A stretch of DNA of 54,379 bases, taken from positions 1 to 54,379 of the forward strand of contig JAKFYJ010000023.1 in NCBI GenBank assembly GCA_021730935.1, read 5' to 3'. Position 1 is the first letter of the stretch. Each line of letters begins with the position of its first letter. The notes beneath the pieces were generated by a model. It searched no databases and was not told the DNA's origin. It saw nothing but the letters and a program-made list of their open reading frames with translations. This document shows positions 2,276-26,363 of the stretch, in pieces. Source of the stretch: Elusimicrobiota bacterium. Lineage in GTDB: Bacteria > Elusimicrobiota > Elusimicrobia > 2-02-FULL-39-32. A program made the position numbers and the translations under genes.

Positions 2276-3355
2276 CTATCTGACTTTCAGCGATGCCAAA
2301 GCGATCAGTGAAAGGACGATGGAGATGATCCAGAACCGGATGGTGACTTTGGATTCCGGCCAGCCCTGCAGTTCAAAATGATGGTGAAGCGGCGCCATCC
2401 GGAAAACTCTTTTTCCAAATTTCCTGAACGAGATGACCTGGATGAGGACTGAAAGAGCTTCCGCCACAAAGAGTCCTCCGACAACGACGAGGATGAGTTC
2501 CTGTTTGATGACGAGGGCCACGAGGCCAAGAGCGCCGCCCAGGAAAAGAGATCCTGTGTCCCCCATGAAAATTTGAGCGGGATGGCAGTTATACCAAAGG
2601 AATCCAAGGCCGGACCCAATCATGGCCGCCAGGAACACGGAAATTTCGCCCGCTCCGGCCACCGGAATGATCCTGAGATAACTGGAAAATTTTGCGTGTC
2701 CCGCCAGATAAGTGAAAATCACAAAGGTGAGGCACGACGAGACGATCGCTCCGATCGCGAGCCCGTCCAGCCCGTCGGTCAGGTTCACGGCGTTGGAAGA
2801 TCCGACCAGCACCATGATGGCAAAGAAAATATAAAAAACGCCGAGATCCAAGAAGAGATTTTTAAAATAAGGCACATTGATCTGAGTCCTGAAATCCGCG
2901 TTCGGGGGGTTGATGTATAAATATCCGGCGACCGCGACGGCAAAGAAAATTTGGGCCATCATTTTTTGTGTCGGAGAGATCCCCTCTTTTTTTCCTTTCC
3001 ATTTTTTATAGTCATCGATCCATCCGATAAACCCGAGATAAACCACAGTCACGAGGCAAAGCCAGATGAAAGAGTTGTCCAGTTTCGCCCAGAGGACCGT
3101 TGAAATGACGGTGGAAAGGAGGATCAGGACGCCGCCCATGATGGGAGTGCCCGACTTGGTTTGATGCGTCGAAGGCCCGTCTTTTCGGATGGTTTGCGTC
3201 ACGCGGTTGGCTTTGACATAATCGATGAAGGTCGGCCCGAACGCCAGAGTGATGCCGAAAGCCGTGAGGATGGAACCTCCGGCACGGAAGGTGATGTAAT
3301 TTAAGAGATTAAAGGGAGAAAAAAGGTGTTTGAGCACTGTGAGATAAAACAGCAT
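2276..3355 (-). CDS. mraY: Phospho-N-acetylmuramoyl-pentapeptide transferase MraY
   Basis: MraY transfers phospho-MurNAc-pentapeptide to undecaprenyl phosphate at the inner membrane to make lipid I. I chose the ATG at 3355 (MLFYLTVLKHLF). It gives 359 residues, the family's normal length, and lies 2 nt after the murF stop. The frame stays open further upstream, but only inside murF. About ten hydrophobic helices are visible. Key motifs are STHQTKSGTPTMGG-like residues (here SGTPIMGG), DDYKKWK, NAVNLTDGLDGLA with its catalytic aspartates, and the C-terminal HHHFELQGWPE. The gene lies in the standard place between murF and murD. Confidence 0.97.
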   Translation of the reverse strand: MLFYLTVLKHLFSPFNLLNYITFRAGGSILTAFGITLAFGPTFIDYVKANRVTQTIRKDGPSTHQTKSGTPIMGGVLILLSTVISTVLWAKLDNSFIWLCLVTVVYLGFIGWIDDYKKWKGKKEGISPTQKMMAQIFFAVAVAGYLYINPPNADFRTQINVPYFKNLFLDLGVFYIFFAIMVLVGSSNAVNLTDGLDGLAIGAIVSSCLTFVIFTYLAGHAKFSSYLRIIPVAGAGEISVFLAAMIGSGLGFLWYNCHPAQIFMGDTGSLFLGGALGLVALVIKQELILVVVGGLFVAEALSVLIQVISFRKFGKRVFRMAPLHHHFELQGWPESKVTIRFWIISIVLSLIALASLKVR

Positions 3356-14931: not shown

Positions 14932-17900
14932 TTATTGCTGAACGGCGATGACGGCCTGAGCTTTGGCGGCTTCCATGAATTTGTCGAGCGTATAGATCTC
15001 ACGGAGGACGCCGTTTTCGCCGAGCAGGAAGACCAGGACTTGATGTTTGAGACTTTCGATCAGGAGGCCAGGGTCCGTGGTGAAGATGGCGAATTTTCCC
15101 GGCACATTTTGAGCGATGAACTCCACGCTCACTTGGGTCGGCACGACATTTCCGGTTTGTTTCTGGACGATGATTTCGGTTTTTATGTTCTGTTGCGCAA
15201 GAATGGAGGCAAGCCATTTCTGGTCTGCAACCGAGGGAACCACGATGGTGAACTCCGCATCTTGTTCCTTGAGCTGAGCCATTCTCTTGAGAGCAGTTGT
15301 GATGGCTCCTTTGTCGGCTTTGCGGTCCATGACGAAAACATTGCGGACTGTGGGGATTTTGTTGGCGTGCACGGGGTTTCCGATTCTTTGTTCAGGGGAA
15401 CTCGCGGCAAAGGCGGCGGCGCCATATCCTTCCTGCGCGGCTTTAAGACGGTTGCTGAAGAGTTCGCTGAGTTTGGCTTGTGAGGCATGGGCGGCGGCAT
15501 CTGCCCCCGAAGTGTCAACGCGCGCCGGATTCATGGATTCAAGAAGTTTCACGGGTTCCCTGACGACGACATTGTCTCCGCCGAGAAGATCTCTCAATGT
15601 TTGGAGGGTCCGAGGGTCGTTCGGGTTGCTGTGAGCCAGAGCCCCCGCGAGGAATGCGGTTCTCTCATCAGCATCGCCCAGCTGACCTGCAAGTTCCGTG
15701 ATCCTGTCGCTGGTCTGAGGCTGTGTCTTGCGCAAATAAGCAAACGCTTGATAACCAAGAATCCCAACCCCAATGACAGGCGACCAGGCGCCGAGGACCG
15801 AGAGCCATCCGGCTGATGTTCCGGCGGAGACGGCAGAAACCGCGGCGTCGGACGAAACGACGGAGAGAGCCAGGAGTCCGGGAACGAGAAGGGCGATGAG
15901 GATCACAGAGTGAATGCCTGAGATCTGGGATATTCTGGCTATAGCTCTTTGAAGCGGGATTAATAACTCCCTGATCGACGTTTGATGTGGAGTGGTCGAA
16001 ATCCGAGATATCGCAGATAATCTATCTATCGCAGCTGTAATCCATTCTGTCAGATCTCTCGAATTTATATCTGTTAAGGTCTCGAAGAATCCGTCGTATC
16101 TGTCTTTTTCGTGCTCTGGAAGCCAAAGTTTGATCCCATACATAGAGGCCACCACAGATACTTTGATCGCATCGAGAGTGTCCGTTGGCCTGTTGAGGGC
16201 CTGGTTTGCGCGGTCGAGGAGGTGGGGCGGGGCGGCGATAAGGATTTGAATGTTGCCGGCGCGATGTTGAAGACTTCTGACGAAAGTTTCAATCGGATGA
16301 ACTTGAGATTCCGTTTCGATCTCTTCGCTGGGAACCTCCCAACGCGCGACGATCATTTTGTTGTTGGACATGTGCTTCGCTAGATCCGTCTGCACAACAA
16401 ATTCTTTCATATCTTCATCATTCCTAATGGAAAACATGAAGCCGTCGGCTGTGCCGCGGTCTGAATTGATTGATGCATTTCCCTCAAGAAGGACGATGAC
16501 GCGATCCCCCTGAGAGGGCAATCTATTATTTATGAGATATCTGACTTCACTCATTTCTCTCTTGTCTTTTAATACGACGATGAGCTTTTCGGGCGTTTTC
16601 CTAAGCGCTTTCGTTATCGACCTTTCTACAAAAACATGCCTAAGGTCATTGACGCCGCGTATTTCCAGGATGACTTTTGCCATATCACTCTCTAAAGCGT
16701 GCTGTAAGAGTCCGACTGTTTCAATATCATTGTTTCCAATCCTGGAAAGCGCTAAAGATTGTGCGTGTTCTTCATTAAAACTTATGATGCCTCCGGTTAT
16801 GCCGATTTCCTGCAATTGCTCAGGAGTGATGTTTGAATTGGGTATGTGAGGTCTTCCCATGTGGTTGGAAATGATGGTGATCATGGAAATGATAAGGAGA
16901 GGGGTTCCCGCGCTTAAAATAAGGTTTGCCCAGGCCATGACAGCGCTCTGAACACCGGAATGAGCGGCGGTTGCGGCGGGGATCACGGGGCCTGCGAAGA
17001 GCGCCGCGGCGGAGAGAGTGACGGCGATGAAGGCGGACATGATGGCTCCGGGGGCGCCGAAGCCGACAAAGCCGCTTGCTTCAAAACGCTGCCACAGAGA
17101 CGCGTCGCTCTTGCCGAGCTGATTTTCGTCGACGGATCCATACTTGGCCTTTTCATTTTCAAGCCAGTCTTTCATGACCTTCATTGTCGCCATCAGGCGC
17201 GTGTTGACGGCGTCGCCGTACATGGCATCCTTGTTTTCGCCCGGCAGAAGCGGGGTTTCGAACGCGGAGACATAGGTGGGGTCGTTGGCGGAAGCGCGGA
17301 AAACGATGCGCGCGGCAAAGACTCCGTTCAGTGTGAAATGGATGTCGGCATAACGATTCAGGCCTTTTTCTTCATCCTCGTCCACATTGATGTCCAAATA
17401 AGACACCTCGAGGACGCCTGCGGCGGTCTGGAATGGTTTCCCCACTGCAAAGTCTGTCCGCGCGTGCTCGATCGCGTTGTGCCTTGCTCTTGCGATCAGG
17501 AGCTGTCTGGGCTCTTCGGGGTCTTCCGGGAGCGCCGTTGCGGACTGTTTCCGGAGGAAATTCTTGTCGATGGCCGGCTGGAAACGGGCAGACTGGCGAT
17601 AGGGGGTGGTGTTTTTTTCGAAGGCTTCATAGAACGGATTTGTTGAAGCGGGATGCGCGTCTTTATAATTCTTCACCATCATGGCATAGAGCACGCCGAC
17701 AGCCACGGGGTTTTCGATGGGACCTGTGACGTCCGTCCATGCATGTCCGCTTTTCTCGGCATACATCGGGATGACATAACCGTCGTTCATGAGCTTGCGG
17801 CGTCTGGCTTTGAGGAACACATAACCCGCATCAGTTTGGAAAGTTTCAAATCCCTGCTCTTTCGCTTTGTCGACGACGCCCCAGGTTCCCAAAACATCTT

Positions 17901-20900
17901 TGATGAAAGCGACGCCTTTTTTGCCGTTTCTTTTGAGGACTTCAGGATTATATCCCCCGCGTTCTTTGAAGAAGGGCATGAGCGCGGCCATCAGGTTGTC
18001 GGGAGGAAGGACCAGGAAATCGCCGTTGGGCAGGCGCACCACGATGGCTCCGCGGTCTCCGTCCAGGTCGAAAGACAATCCGAAGTCCGCGGTTTCAGCC
18101 AGCATGGTTTCTTTGAGCTCGGCAAGGTTTTCCGGTTTTGAAGGGTCCGCTTTGTGCATGCCGTGAAGGGCGAGCACCTTTTCATTTTTGCGGATCACTT
18201 TGGCTCCCAATTGTTCAAGCGTGTCTGCCGCGATTTTTCCGCTGGGGGTGTGGGCGCCGTCGATCACGCATTTGAAGCCTTTGAGCGGTTTGTCGTTGCC
18301 GAAAATTTCTTCCCATTCTTCCAGGAGCTGGAGCGGATTTTCAGACGCCTCAAGAGCTCTTGCAAGGTCATAAAGATTTTTGCCTCCGTGCCCCGTGTCG
18401 GCGACTCTTCCGATGAGAGCGTTCAGGCGGACTGCGGCGTCGTCGGGGTTGATGGCTTTGACCGTGCCTTTGATTTTTCTCTCCTGCGCTCGAAGAGATT
18501 TGGGGTTTTTCACGAAATCATCGACGGTTTTCTCTGTGGTCTGCTTGATTTCTTTTGAGGTCAGGCTTTGCGGTTCCCCGGACTCGTCCTGAATGACGAC
18601 CTTGACTCCGCGGACCTGGATGTTTAATGTCCCCTTGGGATAGAAAGCATGCAATTGCTGGGGCGTTGTTTCATCGAGATTGTTCAGAACTGATGCGATC
18701 TTTTCAGCCACCTTTTTATCATCGCCTTCGAGATTTTCAGGACCTCCGATTTTTTGAAGGATTTTTAAATCGATGGGACGGCCCAAAATCACTTCTTTCT
18801 TGAATGCCTTTACATCGATATGGATGCTGGTGAACGGTTCGGAGATCTCCGGTCTCGCCACATGGCTGGAAGTGATGTCCGGTCTCGCGACATGGCTGGA
18901 AGTGAGGAACACGCCCATGAGGGGTTTATAGAGCTGGATGGCGGCGGAATAGGAAGTGACGCAGTTGGGGCCTTCTTCCTGAATATCGAGGACATGGATT
19001 CCGGCATATTGGAAACCGGCTCTCACCGCGTCGATCAGTTCCTTGTTCACTTTGCGGGCGTCGCGCGCGAGCACGACGGTGCGTTTCTCGGCGGGCAAAT
19101 TGAGTTTGTCCGCTTTTTCGTGCGCCATCTTGGCCCAGGTGACGGCCAGACGGAACGCCATCGCGGGCGTGATGACCTGCTCAACGGAATCGTCATCCAC
19201 ATTTTTCTCTCCGCGGAAATCATAGGTGCGATAAAAATCATCGCTGATCTTGAGCTGGTCTTGGGGGGCGTTGAGATATTGAGACACATCGGCTCCCTGG
19301 CGCAATTTCTGATTCTTGGCGAAATTTTCGTTCGCGGCCCGCTCGAAAGCTTTTTCGAGCAGGGAGATTGAAGAGAGCGTGGACTCCGTGCGAAGGAACG
19401 CGGCTTTTCCCCCCTGAGCGGAACGGTCCAGCAGGACCTGATACATGGATTCGGCGAAATAATCGCGGACCAGGTTGGTGCTCACGCGGTCAAGATATCC
19501 CTTCGCTAAGACAGCTTTGCGGCCGGCCTGAGGCGTTTCAGGATTCATGGAAATGATGAACGGCAGATATTTTTGCGGCTGGAACGCCACCTGGTTGAAG
19601 CTGATGTGCTGGTCGCCTGTCCCTTGCATGACCCAGGGAATGCCCTTGCTCATGAAATATTCCCTCAGGGTAATGAACCCGACGCCTTCCAGATATATGA
19701 ACGGAACGAATTTCCGGCCTTCTTTGTCGGCGACATCCATCGCGGCGCTGATCTTTGCCTGCAATTCTTCCATGTTGATTGCGTTGCCGGCGGGAATTTC
19801 CGCGATGTTGGTCAGGAACTGACCATTTTTGGAATGGGCATAAACATCCGCATAGGCCTGATCGATGGCGGCAGGGTTTTGTTTGGCTCTTTCCTGGAGG
19901 GCTTTGAGGCGTTTTTCCAGAATTTTCTTTCCCAGCTCGACATAGGGCTGGCGCAGATACAGGTTGTCGATCACAATGCGGGTCGCGGGGTTGTCCAAAT
20001 CTTTCATGTCCACATTTTTGACCTGGAGCTGTTCGGCGAGTTCGGCGTTGCCGGCGGCATAGGCCGCGTCTCTGGCTCTTTTCATTGTGGCCGCGATCAA
20101 CCGGGTTCCCACGGTGTGGGTGATGCCGTAAAAAAGAGAGTTGAGCCGGGCGAAAGAATCAGCGATCTGCTGGCCGCTCATGTTTTGGAAATCAATGCGG
20201 GGCAGGCGGAGGTCATTTTTATATTGAGCGAATTCGTCTTCGGAAATATCCAGGGCGGACAAATTGATGACGAGTTTGTTGGGTTCGTTTGAATAAAGAT
20301 GTTTCTGGTTTTCCCAGAGGCTTTGACGGAGGGTCACGAGGTTGGAGGAACCGTCCTGGAATATGCTTTCGTTATAATTTTGTTCTATGGATTTTCCGAA
20401 CCAGAAAAGATGGTCCGGGACCACGAGGGCGATGTCTGTGATTTTTTCATCGACGATCCGGTTTCCTATTTTAACCGACGGGTGCCAGCCGAAACGGAAC
20501 CGGCGGATGGCATTGTATCGCGTCCGCCAATAATCTTTGGCGCTCAGCCCATATTTCGCGAGGAAAGTCATCATGTGGAGGTCCGCAGTCCATCGGCCGC
20601 CGACATTGTCATACATTTCCCCAAAACCCGGCGTGTGGTCCGGGCCCAGCTCTTTGTCCAGCCCGGAATTCTTGATGAACGCGGCGAGCCGGCTTTGGTC
20701 CACGCGCGGAGTGGTTTCAAAGAACATGTTGCCGAGGACAGTTTGGAATGATTTGAGGACGGCGGCTCTGTCTGCGCCGGATTTGGACGCGATCATGTCG
20801 ATCAGGTTTTTCCCGGCGGGAACCTTGAACAGTTCCTCTATCGGTTTTTCCTGGCCTTTTTTGTCTCCGTCCTGATAGAAATTGATTTCGTGGAGGACAT

Positions 20901-23900
20901 CCAAAACGGAATCTGCAAACGTTGCGCCCGACACGCCCACGGGAGTGTTGTGTTTGAGGAGGACATATAAAATTTCGACGAAGATCATCATGGTTTCGTC
21001 CGTGGATCCGGACTTGGAGCTCGGGATCACGACGATCTGGTCCCAGTCGATGCCCAGTTCCGTGACGATTTTCTGAAGGGCCGCTTCATAATCTTTGCCC
21101 AGTTCATATTCGCCCAGGATGACGGTGTTGTCTTGTTCCTGCACTTGCACGGAGACGCTGAACCCGTCGCTTGCGGCCTGGAACGGAGTGTGCTGTCCGC
21201 CGATGCCTGTCTTGATGATGACGCGGATGCTTTTGCCCGGGGATTTGGCGCTGAGGACCCTGTTGCGCCGATCAAAAAATGCTTTCATGTTTTCCACGGT
21301 CCCTATGAACACTTTATCGCCTTCGTCTGTGTAATATCCCTGGTTTCCGTGTAACGCAAAAGATCCGTCCACGGCGGCTCCAAATCCGACGCCGGTCCCT
21401 TTTCCGTCCATGCCTCCGTCGAGATATGGCTTCTCGAGCTGTTTTCTTAAAGGCTCATTTTTCTTTGCTTTCCTCGGGACAGGGAGCACCTGCCAGAGTT
21501 TTCTGGAGATGGCGCGGGAATCAAGATATTCCTGGGAGCGCGGTTTTCTCACCAAAACGCTCAGCCGTTTGAAGGGTTCAACATTCGCATTCCAGGCCCA
21601 GTGGCCGAGCCAGTGAGGGAGGCCGTAGCCGAGGAATGAGAGGAAGAAGCTGAGGGCTCCGGGCGAGGCGAAGCTCTGAAAATAATTCGCAAAGGGAACC
21701 GCGCCCAGCGTGAGGAGGACCATCATGATCGGAGATTCGAGGAAAATTCTGAAATTGTCTTTCTGATTTCCGGGGTGAGCGGCATACCACGCCGCGGACA
21801 GGACGAAACCGATCGCGGCCTGGGTCATGAATCCGTCCTGAAGGAAATGGCTCAGAACCGCAAAAGCGAGCGCGAGGGTCCAGCTTTCAACGGCGGGGTC
21901 CCGGTGCTTTTCGAGACTTTCAGTTTTGGCCGCGGCTTGATCTTCAGATAAACCAGCGTCCATAAATTTCTTTATGCGCGCTTCGCGGTCGAAGACGGAG
22001 AGGCGGGCACGAGCGTTGGGGTTGTGGATCGAGATTTGCACGGTTTTCCCGTTGATTATTTTGAGGTTAAATGTCTGCGCAAAATTTGTCACAGCCAAGG
22101 CATCTCGGATATCCATTTCAGGACTTTCTCGGAACGAAGGCTTTTTTGTAAAGACAATCTTTCCATCTCTGACCATCTGCAGTTCGACTGTGCCGTTTTG
22201 ATCCATTAAATTTCTTACTTGAGAAACAACCAGGTTCATGCCGATGTTGGACAAGATGGTTCCATTGGGCATGCTGAACATTGCGAAGATCACGGGGAGT
22301 CCCAGGGTCAGGCTTGCGGGGCCATGGAAGGCATATCCGAGCGCGACGGCAAGGAGGGCAGCTCCTGTTGCGATGATGCTTCGGGTCCGCCGCGTCGCGG
22401 GCTGAGCGGGCATTTCGGCGAGTTTTCTGTCGATTTTATTGATTTGATCTTGCCAGTATTCATACCTGGGATTTGTCTCTCTGGAAGCATAGATTTTCCT
22501 GGTCACCGATCTCTGGGCCACGGCGAGGGTTTTGAGAATTTGAAGGCGTTCTCTTCTACTATTTTTCACTTTATATATATTGAAATCCTCAAGAGTTTTT
22601 TCTATATCTGCCGAGCCGACCAGATAGGCTTCTGCTGGGCCTCTTTTATGGTATGTTGACATGATGCCAGAGCTCATCCTCATCCGGGCCAAAATGAGCA
22701 CGACGGCCAAAATTTCTTCATCGAGCATGCTCTCGAAATATTGAGTGTCTCCCCGATCTTTTAATATGTCGCGCAGGACTTCTTTGGGGCCTGATTCATC
22801 GGGGATTTTGAGATCTCGTCTTAATGCCGCCCACCGGATCGCGGCGTCGCTGACTATATCGTTGTTTAAAGTTTCGTTGTCGGCGGAAAGGCTCTCAAGG
22901 AATCGTTTTTGCAAGTCAACTTCTTCATTCTTATAGACATTGTGCGGGGTAATATAATCAGTAAATACTTCCATTGCATATGGAGTCCTTCTTCTGAACC
23001 ATCCCTCTTTCTGCCAGGTGATCCCAATCGCGGCGGTTCCGGCGCCGAGGACGGCATAAAGCGCGTTCGCGGCGGTGAACCAGGAGCCGGCATCGGCGCT
23101 GGCGGCCTGGAGCAGGACCGCGGCGTCAGAGGAGTCGGGCAAGAGGGCGGATCCGATGGCGGCCAGGATGAGGACGCGGATGAGACGATAAGGATGCGCT
23201 AATGATTTTTGAATGGCGGGAAGATTATTAGATTCGGTTGGATGTATGGCTGTCCTGAATAGGAGAGGAGGTTTATTCGATTTTTCCGCAAACATTACCC
23301 TCGCGGTGTAAAACTTTGGCACAAGATTTGAACCTAAATTGTTTAGTTCATCCGTGACATATTTACGGGCCGCGGGTCGATAGCGCAGAGCATGATCATA
23401 CATATTCAATAGAATGTGATCCCGCTCTAAAAATATGGTTTTTCTCTCTCCAGTGAAAGAATAACCATCGATGGCAATGTGCACAACATCATCTTTAAGG
23501 AAATTTTTCACGACTTCATCGATGAATTTTTCCTTGGCGCTGAGGCGACGAGGTTTCGCGTTCATTCTTTTGCCGATGACGGCGCGTTCCGAAGATTTTC
23601 CATCTTTCGAGGTTTTGCTGATACTCGTCCTTTTTATCTGATTTCCTGCCGTGAGAGCGAGAGGGAATTTCATGCCGAAGAGAAGGGAAACAGGGATGAA
23701 AATGATGTTGTATATGAGATGCGTCAATTCGCCGATTTTTGATTTGTAGTTGTTAACGATGAAGACCCCGACCACAATTGAAACTGGAATGCTGACGAAC
23801 CACATCCCAGAAGTCATTTCAAAAACTTTATATCCCACCATTCCGCCGATGACGTATGGCAGGGTATACATCGAGATGATGATGGCTCCGACGCCCAAAA

Positions 23901-26316
23901 GTCTGACGGATTTTTGGATCGTGGCGAGGACGAAATTTTTGCTGTAATCCTTATGTTCATTGGCCAAAAAATTAAGGAAATTGTTCTCGATGTGTTTCTG
24001 TTCCAATCGGGGTGCGAACTTCAATCCTGCGTAGAGATAAATGACAGCCGCGCCGAGATGGGGAAATTTCTTTGACAGATATATTGCCCATTTTTTTCCA
24101 TCGCTCTGGGGAAGTGGTTCATGGTTGCCGAATATTTCGGCGGCAATAGCCATGGTTCCGCCATAAAAAAGAAGTTTTCTCGTTATTTCAGTTCCCAAGA
24201 GATAGTTTGTCGCGTGCCGAATGGCGTTTTCCGATGTGAGAGCGAAAGCGAGACCGTTACTCTTTAGGGTAAAGAACAGATTGGATTTCGCTGGAGCGAT
24301 GGCGAACTGCCTGCTGGGTTTGGGGGCAATGGGATTTTGCAATTCTCCGGAGGCGCTTGCTTTCGTGAGAGTCGAATCTGTTCCGGCTTCCATGATTTCG
24401 ACTTTGACGGCGCCGGTTTGGGTGTTGACGGTTGTGACTTGCCGGCTTGATTTCAATGCGGCAGTGATGGCCTGGAAGAAGGATTTTACTGTGACGGCAG
24501 ATTGAGCGAACCACGGCTGGCCCAGGTTGAGGGCTTTGACGATGGTCACTTTTTCAGGGGCAAAAAGTTTTTCGAGAGGGATCAAGTCCCGCGAGAAGGC
24601 ATTCATGGGATGATAATCTTTGGTGATTTCTGCCAGGTTCATTTTGGGGCGGATGGTGATGAATGAGATGTCTTTATCTTTAAGGAGGGTTTCCAGGCCG
24701 CCTGTGTGGGCGCCGCCGGCAACCAGGACGCTGACTTTCGCGTTTTTCTCGGACATTTTCTTTGTGAGGCGTCCCACGAAAGCATGGCTTCGGACATCGG
24801 ACTGTTTGTTGAAGAGCGAAATGTTTTTGATGAGAGCGGGGTTGAGTTCGGGGGCTCCAATTCGCTGTGCGATGCCAAGGATGCGGGACTCGTGCGCGGT
24901 GAACTCGGCAAAATCTGAGGGAGTGAGGCTGAAGGCGATGCCTTTTTTAAGGAGGCGGAAATCCTGGTCGATCTCGTGGAGTTCTCGACTCGCTTCGCTC
25001 GCTCGAACAATAACATTGCCGGTGTCGCGCGAGAGCGTCGAAATTTCATTTTGCAGGGATTCCTGGTTGATGCTTTCCGTGCCGGCGACATATTGGATAT
25101 ATTTGGAGAGTTCTGAGGAGACAGGAATTTTTGCGGAGCGGCAACGGTCTTTGAGGGACTCATAAAAATCGGCGTATCCGATGCGGCCCAGGCGGAAGAT
25201 GAGGCAGTCCTGGAGGAGGGCCATGAGATCGTCTTTGCTCAGGGACTCGGAAAGTTCTTTGAGGACTTTTCTCTGTTCCGCGCTGATCTTTGCCATGTCG
25301 AGAGAATTTTCGGTTTCATAAAGCTTGAGGAAAGCGGAGACATTGGGGAATTTTGAGGTTTGGCCGCTGAATTTGGCGAGGGCGGAAATCCATTCCCCGA
25401 GTTTGAGTTCCCCCTTTTCATATTGCGTCTGGGCGCGGTCAAATTTTTTGGCTGGTTCGGAATAGGTTTTTTCTTTGAGCGAGGCGAGGAGAGTTTCGGT
25501 TTGCGCGGCCCATTCGGCGGACGGCTTGTTCTGGGCGAAGGCGTTTTTATAGGCGTTCACCTGTGTCATATAATTTTCTTTGTCTTCAAGTCCCCAGAAT
25601 TCGACTTCGTCGCGGGTTCTCGCGAGGCCAGCGATTTCGGAACCTGTCAGGAGCTGGACGCTCAGCAGATATCCCGCGGCTTCCATCACGCTTTCGCGGT
25701 CCGGGAACTTGTGCCACTCTTCCATGGCGTCAAGGCGGCCTTCCGTGCCTTCAAGGCCGACGAGATCAACGCCGGAATCGGTCAGCTCCTTTAATAAAAA
25801 CGCAAGGTTTTTCTGGACGCCCAGGACATCATGGACATCCTGAATGTGGATGACGACGGGGAGGTTGGAAGAAATTTTGCCGTTTGCAAGGGAGAGTTTC
25901 GCGCCTTTGGCGAGCTGGACGCGCTCAATGTTGCCGTAACTTGCGACTTTTTCCCAGAGCCAGGCCGGGATCTGCGTGTTTTGGGCGCCTTTGGAATGTC
26001 TGGCTGTGTGTTTGTTGAGCGCTGACTGAATTCTGGCCTGAAGCGCGTCGTTTTGTTCTTTTGAGAGGCTGTTGGTGAGGCGCGTGACATCGTTCTGAAG
26101 TTGGCCTGGGACCATGGCGGCGGAGGCGAGCTGTGGATACGCGCGGGCATCGGAGGATTTTTCCGACATTTTTTCAGCGGCTTTCCGGCGTTCTTCCCAG
26201 AGGCCGGCCTGGGCATAAGGCGCGGAGAAGGTGGTGAACGAGAATGCGGCCAAAACAAACAGGGCGACCGCTCTCTGAATTTTTTCAAAAGTTGTTTTTT
26301 TAAGTTTTGTTTTCAT
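14932..26316 (-). CDS. Giant exported/membrane protein with phosphoglucose isomerase- and phosphoglucomutase-like regions
   Basis: This is a 3,794-residue protein. The ATG at 26316 is chosen because GGAG lies 6 nt upstream and a signal peptide follows (residues 1-37, ending APYAQA). Regions in order: 155-560, a globular domain starting VVIHIQDVH and ending in VLVAGGAHTGG, resembling ChaN/TraB-type folds (tentative). 720-885 is multi-helix membrane. 920-1010 is unknown. 1035-1090 and 1305-1350 are membrane hairpins. 1480-1575 has about four helices. 1620-2330 is a phosphoglucose isomerase (SSKSGSTDET, VGGRWTADLHM, GTGDQHISFNQ). 2355-3030 is a phosphoglucomutase/phosphomannomutase (YDFRG, serine loop TSSHVAR, metal loop DLDGDR, sugar loop EKSGH, phosphate loop RASANDP). 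3090-3145 is a membrane hairpin. 3150-3460 is unknown. 3465-3530 is a membrane hairpin, and the C-terminal part is unknown. Activity is unproven: the isomerase ESNGK glutamate motif is not clear. It appears monocistronic with its own terminator. Confidence 0.85.
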   Translation of the reverse strand: MKTKLKKTTFEKIQRAVALFVLAAFSFTTFSAPYAQAGLWEERRKAAEKMSEKSSDARAYPQLASAAMVPGQLQNDVTRLTNSLSKEQNDALQARIQSALNKHTARHSKGAQNTQIPAWLWEKVASYGNIERVQLAKGAKLSLANGKISSNLPVVIHIQDVHDVLGVQKNLAFLLKELTDSGVDLVGLEGTEGRLDAMEEWHKFPDRESVMEAAGYLLSVQLLTGSEIAGLARTRDEVEFWGLEDKENYMTQVNAYKNAFAQNKPSAEWAAQTETLLASLKEKTYSEPAKKFDRAQTQYEKGELKLGEWISALAKFSGQTSKFPNVSAFLKLYETENSLDMAKISAEQRKVLKELSESLSKDDLMALLQDCLIFRLGRIGYADFYESLKDRCRSAKIPVSSELSKYIQYVAGTESINQESLQNEISTLSRDTGNVIVRASEASRELHEIDQDFRLLKKGIAFSLTPSDFAEFTAHESRILGIAQRIGAPELNPALIKNISLFNKQSDVRSHAFVGRLTKKMSEKNAKVSVLVAGGAHTGGLETLLKDKDISFITIRPKMNLAEITKDYHPMNAFSRDLIPLEKLFAPEKVTIVKALNLGQPWFAQSAVTVKSFFQAITAALKSSRQVTTVNTQTGAVKVEIMEAGTDSTLTKASASGELQNPIAPKPSRQFAIAPAKSNLFFTLKSNGLAFALTSENAIRHATNYLLGTEITRKLLFYGGTMAIAAEIFGNHEPLPQSDGKKWAIYLSKKFPHLGAAVIYLYAGLKFAPRLEQKHIENNFLNFLANEHKDYSKNFVLATIQKSVRLLGVGAIIISMYTLPYVIGGMVGYKVFEMTSGMWFVSIPVSIVVGVFIVNNYKSKIGELTHLIYNIIFIPVSLLFGMKFPLALTAGNQIKRTSISKTSKDGKSSERAVIGKRMNAKPRRLSAKEKFIDEVVKNFLKDDVVHIAIDGYSFTGERKTIFLERDHILLNMYDHALRYRPAARKYVTDELNNLGSNLVPKFYTARVMFAEKSNKPPLLFRTAIHPTESNNLPAIQKSLAHPYRLIRVLILAAIGSALLPDSSDAAVLLQAASADAGSWFTAANALYAVLGAGTAAIGITWQKEGWFRRRTPYAMEVFTDYITPHNVYKNEEVDLQKRFLESLSADNETLNNDIVSDAAIRWAALRRDLKIPDESGPKEVLRDILKDRGDTQYFESMLDEEILAVVLILARMRMSSGIMSTYHKRGPAEAYLVGSADIEKTLEDFNIYKVKNSRRERLQILKTLAVAQRSVTRKIYASRETNPRYEYWQDQINKIDRKLAEMPAQPATRRTRSIIATGAALLAVALGYAFHGPASLTLGLPVIFAMFSMPNGTILSNIGMNLVVSQVRNLMDQNGTVELQMVRDGKIVFTKKPSFRESPEMDIRDALAVTNFAQTFNLKIINGKTVQISIHNPNARARLSVFDREARIKKFMDAGLSEDQAAAKTESLEKHRDPAVESWTLALAFAVLSHFLQDGFMTQAAIGFVLSAAWYAAHPGNQKDNFRIFLESPIMMVLLTLGAVPFANYFQSFASPGALSFFLSFLGYGLPHWLGHWAWNANVEPFKRLSVLVRKPRSQEYLDSRAISRKLWQVLPVPRKAKKNEPLRKQLEKPYLDGGMDGKGTGVGFGAAVDGSFALHGNQGYYTDEGDKVFIGTVENMKAFFDRRNRVLSAKSPGKSIRVIIKTGIGGQHTPFQAASDGFSVSVQVQEQDNTVILGEYELGKDYEAALQKIVTELGIDWDQIVVIPSSKSGSTDETMMIFVEILYVLLKHNTPVGVSGATFADSVLDVLHEINFYQDGDKKGQEKPIEELFKVPAGKNLIDMIASKSGADRAAVLKSFQTVLGNMFFETTPRVDQSRLAAFIKNSGLDKELGPDHTPGFGEMYDNVGGRWTADLHMMTFLAKYGLSAKDYWRTRYNAIRRFRFGWHPSVKIGNRIVDEKITDIALVVPDHLFWFGKSIEQNYNESIFQDGSSNLVTLRQSLWENQKHLYSNEPNKLVINLSALDISEDEFAQYKNDLRLPRIDFQNMSGQQIADSFARLNSLFYGITHTVGTRLIAATMKRARDAAYAAGNAELAEQLQVKNVDMKDLDNPATRIVIDNLYLRQPYVELGKKILEKRLKALQERAKQNPAAIDQAYADVYAHSKNGQFLTNIAEIPAGNAINMEELQAKISAAMDVADKEGRKFVPFIYLEGVGFITLREYFMSKGIPWVMQGTGDQHISFNQVAFQPQKYLPFIISMNPETPQAGRKAVLAKGYLDRVSTNLVRDYFAESMYQVLLDRSAQGGKAAFLRTESTLSSISLLEKAFERAANENFAKNQKLRQGADVSQYLNAPQDQLKISDDFYRTYDFRGEKNVDDDSVEQVITPAMAFRLAVTWAKMAHEKADKLNLPAEKRTVVLARDARKVNKELIDAVRAGFQYAGIHVLDIQEEGPNCVTSYSAAIQLYKPLMGVFLTSSHVARPDITSSHVARPEISEPFTSIHIDVKAFKKEVILGRPIDLKILQKIGGPENLEGDDKKVAEKIASVLNNLDETTPQQLHAFYPKGTLNIQVRGVKVVIQDESGEPQSLTSKEIKQTTEKTVDDFVKNPKSLRAQERKIKGTVKAINPDDAAVRLNALIGRVADTGHGGKNLYDLARALEASENPLQLLEEWEEIFGNDKPLKGFKCVIDGAHTPSGKIAADTLEQLGAKVIRKNEKVLALHGMHKADPSKPENLAELKETMLAETADFGLSFDLDGDRGAIVVRLPNGDFLVLPPDNLMAALMPFFKERGGYNPEVLKRNGKKGVAFIKDVLGTWGVVDKAKEQGFETFQTDAGYVFLKARRRKLMNDGYVIPMYAEKSGHAWTDVTGPIENPVAVGVLYAMMVKNYKDAHPASTNPFYEAFEKNTTPYRQSARFQPAIDKNFLRKQSATALPEDPEEPRQLLIARARHNAIEHARTDFAVGKPFQTAAGVLEVSYLDINVDEDEEKGLNRYADIHFTLNGVFAARIVFRASANDPTYVSAFETPLLPGENKDAMYGDAVNTRLMATMKVMKDWLENEKAKYGSVDENQLGKSDASLWQRFEASGFVGFGAPGAIMSAFIAVTLSAAALFAGPVIPAATAAHSGVQSAVMAWANLILSAGTPLLIISMITIISNHMGRPHIPNSNITPEQLQEIGITGGIISFNEEHAQSLALSRIGNNDIETVGLLQHALESDMAKVILEIRGVNDLRHVFVERSITKALRKTPEKLIVVLKDKREMSEVRYLINNRLPSQGDRVIVLLEGNASINSDRGTADGFMFSIRNDEDMKEFVVQTDLAKHMSNNKMIVARWEVPSEEIETESQVHPIETFVRSLQHRAGNIQILIAAPPHLLDRANQALNRPTDTLDAIKVSVVASMYGIKLWLPEHEKDRYDGFFETLTDINSRDLTEWITAAIDRLSAISRISTTPHQTSIRELLIPLQRAIARISQISGIHSVILIALLVPGLLALSVVSSDAAVSAVSAGTSAGWLSVLGAWSPVIGVGILGYQAFAYLRKTQPQTSDRITELAGQLGDADERTAFLAGALAHSNPNDPRTLQTLRDLLGGDNVVVREPVKLLESMNPARVDTSGADAAAHASQAKLSELFSNRLKAAQEGYGAAAFAASSPEQRIGNPVHANKIPTVRNVFVMDRKADKGAITTALKRMAQLKEQDAEFTIVVPSVADQKWLASILAQQNIKTEIIVQKQTGNVVPTQVSVEFIAQNVPGKFAIFTTDPGLLIESLKHQVLVFLLGENGVLREIYTLDKFMEAAKAQAVIAVQQ
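18845..18904 (-). repeat. In-frame 30-nt tandem duplication in the mutase catalytic loop
   Basis: Two 30-nt units (18845-18874 and 18875-18904) differ at only 2 positions. They encode TSSHVARPDI followed by TSSHVARPEI (residues 2472-2491 of the giant protein). The unit contains the Ser-His pair that corresponds to the phosphoserine loop of phosphoglucomutases. Confidence 0.9.
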
Positions 26317-26363
26317 GTTTGTCTCCATAAAAAAAGAAATCACCCTTTGACTTCAGGATGATC

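Follow-up and report, generated by a model that had tools for sequence, protein, structure and literature searches.

Phosphohexomutases work through a serine loop, one of the best conserved stretches of their superfamily, and in the available portions of PMC7761743 and PMC7101342 the loop 1 phosphoserine is described as donating its phosphate to the sugar and taking another back. The DNA analysed here (the window, a contig stretch of 54,379 bases from a 2.7 Mb genome in 96 contigs with 2.74% contamination) encodes this loop twice in tandem within one giant open reading frame, raising the question of which serine, if either, would carry the phosphate. The features concerned are as follows.

14932..26343, minus strand: giant open reading frame P0001, 3803 codons with a GTG start, open throughout, which holds the mutase domain.
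17224..19248, minus strand: divergent alpha-D-phosphohexomutase domain, residues ~2366-3040, predicted from Pfam and an AlphaFold2 model match.
18874..18903, minus strand: unit A, TSSHVARPDI, residues 2481-2490; gene-strand DNA ACTTCCAGCCATGTCGCGAGACCGGACATC.
18844..18873, minus strand: unit B, TSSHVARPEI, residues 2491-2500; gene-strand DNA ACTTCCAGCCATGTGGCGAGACCGGAGATC.

The two 30-nt units abut on the minus strand at 18844-18903 and are identical at 28 of 30 bases, exactly as a sequence-only reading of this DNA had claimed for a duplicated Ser-His loop; the coordinates it gave (18845-18904) were one base too high. Both mismatches are C/G differences, one of them synonymous (Val) and the other exchanging Asp for Glu. 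Tandem Repeats Finder detected the array independently (18844-18905; period 30, 93% matches, score 110), and across 300 codon-shuffled copies of the gene the best adjacent 30-mer identity was 16-22/30 compared with the 28/30 observed. The same reading took the event to be recent, a date that is not established because no relative is close enough to time a divergence of 2/30.

Whole-codon tandem duplications are evidently common in the giant-gene loci of relatives. Over 437,281 bases of these loci there were 17 Tandem Repeats Finder arrays with a period of at least 15, six of which score above the 110 of the window; the periods of all six are divisible by three. As the surveyed loci had been chosen for their giant genes, this rate is not a general one. 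Given that comparable in-frame arrays occur in the relatives' loci, the duplication event itself is ordinary; it is the location, in a catalytic loop, that is unusual.

Over the giant reading frame, only PGM_PMM_I (PF02878; residues 2372-2484, 34.7 bits with a cut-off of 22.5) and PGM_PMM_II (PF02879; residues 2687-2768, 43.4 bits with a cut-off of 29.3) exceeded the Pfam gathering scores, placing domains I and II in homology with the alpha-D-phosphohexomutase superfamily. Alignment of the Ser-His loop with the mutase phosphoserine position had been set beforehand as the test of the proposed catalytic role, and the two did align: by phmmer, GVFLTSSH of unit A lies opposite GVMLTGSH of Pseudomonas aeruginosa PMM/PGM, so that unit A faces the LTGSH of loop 1. 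A profile made from the window and three relatives likewise placed TASH...RGFK opposite TGSH...NGFK of the same enzyme.

An AlphaFold2 model of the mutase domain (m5827425cf2fe), built from a four-row alignment, had a mean pLDDT of 66.7 and a pTM of 0.72. Its best matches were structures of P. aeruginosa PMM/PGM, the top one with a Z of 34.2 (402 aligned, rmsd 3.2), which points to the four-domain fold of the superfamily, and the 50 matches listed by VIA-align 2 were all members of the phosphohexomutase superfamily or complexes containing one. A second structure prediction, of domain I and the loop from a single sequence, reached a mean pLDDT of 39 and was left unused. Its homology and predicted structure place the domain in the superfamily in both descent and fold, although as a divergent member.

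Relatives of this mutase were reached by way of a neighbouring domain, as direct scans for orthologues found none. Single-sequence mutase scans of genome_contigs and viral_contigs returned no orthologue, and neither did a profile search of viral_contigs with alignment A2. Among 340 genomes of the window's phylum, the mutase matched only its own genome at E 1e-20, and domain I alone gave merely weak canonical matches in 7/340, own genome included. Searches of 60 relatives gave matches to canonical domain II and no orthologue; the A2 profile gave weak canonical matches, and nothing more, in seven of eight genomes drawn from the window's own family and genus; and a plasmid search gave distant canonical mutases only (25 records). 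The neighbour through which the relatives were found lies in the same reading frame.

19324..21426, minus strand: PGI-like domain, residues ~1640-2340, with 27 related loci that are 42-51% identical.

This domain of ~700 residues has the motifs SSKSGSTDET, VGGRW and GTGDQH, which we take to resemble those of glucose-6-phosphate isomerase; it matched no Pfam family and no PDB sequence. It was found in four of the 340 genomes of the phylum (own included), and a profile of four such domains identified 27 loci in genome_contigs, most of them labelled Omnitrophota and the rest Elusimicrobia or one of a small number of other groups. The mutase is also encoded at three of the 27 (L047, L048 and L062), a weak partial match in L051 having been left out of the count. 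When 384 genomes from one relative's phylum, themselves a sample from a larger group, were searched with a profile, six had a match at 1e-30, namely the same three and the new L076, L077 and L078; a further search of six genomes of one order added no relative. The window's phylum is taken to be Elusimicrobiota since one of its genomes, G289, has a sequence match to L059, Candidatus Endomicrobium embiratermitis.

The six mutase relatives, all in other genomes, are 41-50% identical to the window. Each carries a single Ser-His, which reads TSSH in L078 and TASH in the other five, together with the motifs V(R/S)GFK, DLDGDR, TDAGY and RASSNDP. The duplication is absent from all six that were found. 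At 27 of 158 columns invariant in the other six the window departs from them, the most of any member; the others range from 1 to 15, the next most divergent differing at 15/146. Part of this departure is expected, since the other six members all come from outside the window's phylum.

Two further stretches complete the loop.

18616..18843, minus strand: loop insert, residues 2501-2576 (~76 in all), which separates unit B from the conserved VRGxK and is a gap in the six relatives.
18601..18615, minus strand: VRGVK, residues 2577-2581, which closes the loop (alignment A2 and profile alignment).

Ser2483 of unit A aligns with the TASH/TSSH of the six relatives and adjoins a modelled strand: fragment residues 116-120 form a strand that runs into unit A, starting at 121 (residue 2481). 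Unit B is a gap in the alignment rows of all six. As unit A is in register both with the strand and with every relative, Ser2483 is the likely phosphate carrier, although the model cannot prove which serine fills the site because it was built from four sequences only and is weak at just this loop. Model residues 123-173 and 188-218 have pLDDT below 50, and the stretch with unit B was modelled at about 25-48, which leaves the earlier suggestion of a second phosphorylation site there unsupported.

VRGVK corresponds to the relatives' V(R/S)GFK and to NGFK of PMM/PGM, the profile placing GFK opposite GFK. Loop 1 of canonical enzymes is compact, with the serine ~10-14 residues before the lysine, and the distance in the six relatives is 14, 14, 14, 14, 11 and 11 residues; in the window it is 98 from unit A, and 88 from unit B, because ~76 more residues come after unit B. 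The extra length of ~84 residues is made up of unit B (10) and the insert (~76), minus the short linker of the relatives, so the tandem duplication accounts for a minor share of the loop's growth. The description of a duplicated loop thus holds for the Ser-His repeat but is incomplete, as the loop is also stretched by ~84 residues of which only 10 had been noticed.

For the insert there was neither a Pfam match above cut-off nor a matching PDB chain; it had no second copy within the 54,379 bases and no confirmed copy in its own genome or 30 relatives, and a six-frame search of the relatives' loci gave nothing below E 0.1. Its one weak match (E 0.048, at 38% across a stretch of 53 residues) was to L080, a 5096-residue open frame from the same family (G008), and was not reproduced by tblastn. 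A foreign origin was considered from the third-position G+C of 0.45 (residues 2501-2566) and dropped, because 412 of the 3727 windows along the gene are equally low.

The remaining active-site positions are these.

18052..18069, minus strand: metal loop DLDGDR, residues 2759-2764, invariant in A2 and in all seven members, opposite DGDGDR.
17743..17757, minus strand: sugar loop EKSGH, residues 2863-2867, from alignments to PMM/PGM and the relatives.
17278..17298, minus strand: phosphate loop RASANDP, residues 3016-3022 (RASSNDP in the relatives).
17830..17832, minus strand: Asp2838, opposite the Lys of WKTGHS in PMM/PGM (phmmer against 3uw2).

The D-x-D-x-D-R metal site of loop 2, the E-x-S sugar site of loop 3 and the R-x-S phosphate site of loop 4 are all found in the domain, RASANDP being presumably the equivalent of the RASNTTP loop 4 of PMM/PGM. 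A domain III lysine as in the canonical enzymes is not: the Lys of WKTGHS, which we assume to be the proposed general base, is replaced by Asp2838, and an Asp at this position is common to all seven family members. Because of this replacement the activity of all seven is only putative, and the family possibly uses a different acid-base chemistry. As far as the accessible text of the two papers goes, PMC7761743 puts forward the domain III Lys as the base, and PMC7101342 covers the role of the sugar-loop Glu and Ser.

We favour, with moderate confidence, the interpretation that one catalytic serine (Ser2483) is kept and that unit B is part of a lineage-specific expansion of the loop. A 30-nt stretch of the phosphoserine loop would have been duplicated in tandem and in frame, probably by replication slippage between junctions that appear to share TC, and the loop would have been lengthened in this lineage by unit B and ~76 unrelated residues between the Ser-His and Gly-x-Lys. 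Ser2483, just after the domain I strand, would still occupy the phosphoserine position; Ser2493, in unit B, would sit in a flexible extension and take no part in phosphoryl transfer; and the domain may still handle a sugar phosphate. Given that the larger insert, lacking from the relatives found, sits right behind it, the second serine would probably be a side effect of the loop's expansion. Weighing against this interpretation are the mean pLDDT of 66.7 and the four sequences behind a model that is weak at the loop itself, and the main doubt concerns whether a domain so altered in sequence would have mutase activity: an 84-residue expansion beside the catalytic serine could abolish it, and the 27/158 changed columns could mean relaxed constraint. 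The duplication and insert may then have broken the catalytic loop, leaving a dead or dying mutase that has taken on some different function in the giant protein or no longer has any. The Ser-to-Lys distance of 98 versus 11-14, the top share of altered family-invariant columns, the low confidence of the modelled loop, the Asp opposite the PMM/PGM Lys and a sugar-loop Gly to Ala change at residue 2862 all speak for such a loss, the leading alternative, which we nevertheless consider unlikely: the Ser and His, the three metal Asp, the Arg, the sugar-loop Glu, Ser and His, and the phosphate-loop Arg and Ser are retained, the frame is open over 3803 codons, and an Asp shared by seven of seven members gives no sign of recent decay.

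An assembly artefact in a metagenome bin would also produce a doubled loop, and the fragmentation of the genome and its contamination are of a kind to allow it; the two copies differ at two sites, however, the repeat and insert are both in frame within the long open frame, and the ATC-ACT junction does not appear to be a simple overlap of two single-copy-loop alleles, making this explanation improbable. Phosphorylation of both Ser-His units, in a two-site or relay loop, strikes us as very doubtful. Unit B does keep TSSHVARP exactly, with one conservative change relative to unit A, and a loop of this length could perhaps swing either unit to the metal, but just one register follows the strand, the six relatives all manage with one Ser-His, and loop confidence is too low for judgement. 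We give least credence to a working new design in which either unit reaches the metal, so that there are two phosphoserines, or the insert switches between them. A natural member with a doubled loop stretched by ~84 residues would show how much this loop tolerates, or the fate of a mutase domain after losing it.

The wider setting may merit more attention than the repeat: in Elusimicrobiota and Omnitrophota, giant reading frames encode a divergent family of mutases with PGI-like domains next to them. The PGI-like domain (loci L046-L072) stands alone in L033/L052 and lies inside giant reading frames elsewhere. The order in L047, L048 and L062 is mutase followed by PGI-like domain, the reverse of that in the window (residues 1640-3040). 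Central-carbon enzymes are strung together in giant or long reading frames of L062, L036 and L047: one frame (L062:2-12772) joins PGK, PPDK, mutase and PGI-like domains, another (L036/P0003) has PGK, PGI-like, another mutase-like stretch with weak Pfam scores and a methyltransferase, and a third (L047:3784-9792) has UDPGP and mutase. In L048:1-7692, enolase and glutamate-dehydrogenase-type domains share one frame, with the C-terminal part ahead of the N-terminal part. The start of the window's own giant frame resembles a signal peptide by eye, and its residues ~150-650 have ~22-26% identity to other long reading frames near PGI-like domains, this N-terminal part being shared by loci L038, L047, L053, L054, L058, L059, L061 and L072.

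Among the titles found in the phosphohexomutase literature none describes a duplicated catalytic loop, which does not prove its absence from print. According to the available part of PMC7761743, which mentions no doubled motifs, TASH, SASH and TPSH are the common motifs among 20,000 similar sequences collected by BLAST. The same paper also describes PGM5 (aciculin), an inactive phosphoglucomutase relative of unclear function that belongs to the superfamily and has altered active-site loops; the changes reported there are substitutions and single insertions, with no duplicated Ser-His in that part of the text, and PGM5 has no close kinship with the window's domain. Nearer to it are the mutases of Omnitrophota beside or fused to PGI-like domains (L047, L048 and L062), together with L076-L078, which have a single Ser-His and lack the 76-residue insert. 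P. aeruginosa PMM/PGM (PDB 3rsm, 1k35, 1pcj and others) has a fold like that predicted here, with a Z of 34.2 to 3rsm, and its Ser-His and metal loops align with those of the window, as does the sugar loop of its relative 3uw2 from Burkholderia thailandensis, in alignment to which the window's Asp2838 stands in place of the PMM/PGM-type Lys. At ~20% identity to the window, P. aeruginosa PMM/PGM differs from it in having one Ser-His and a short loop.
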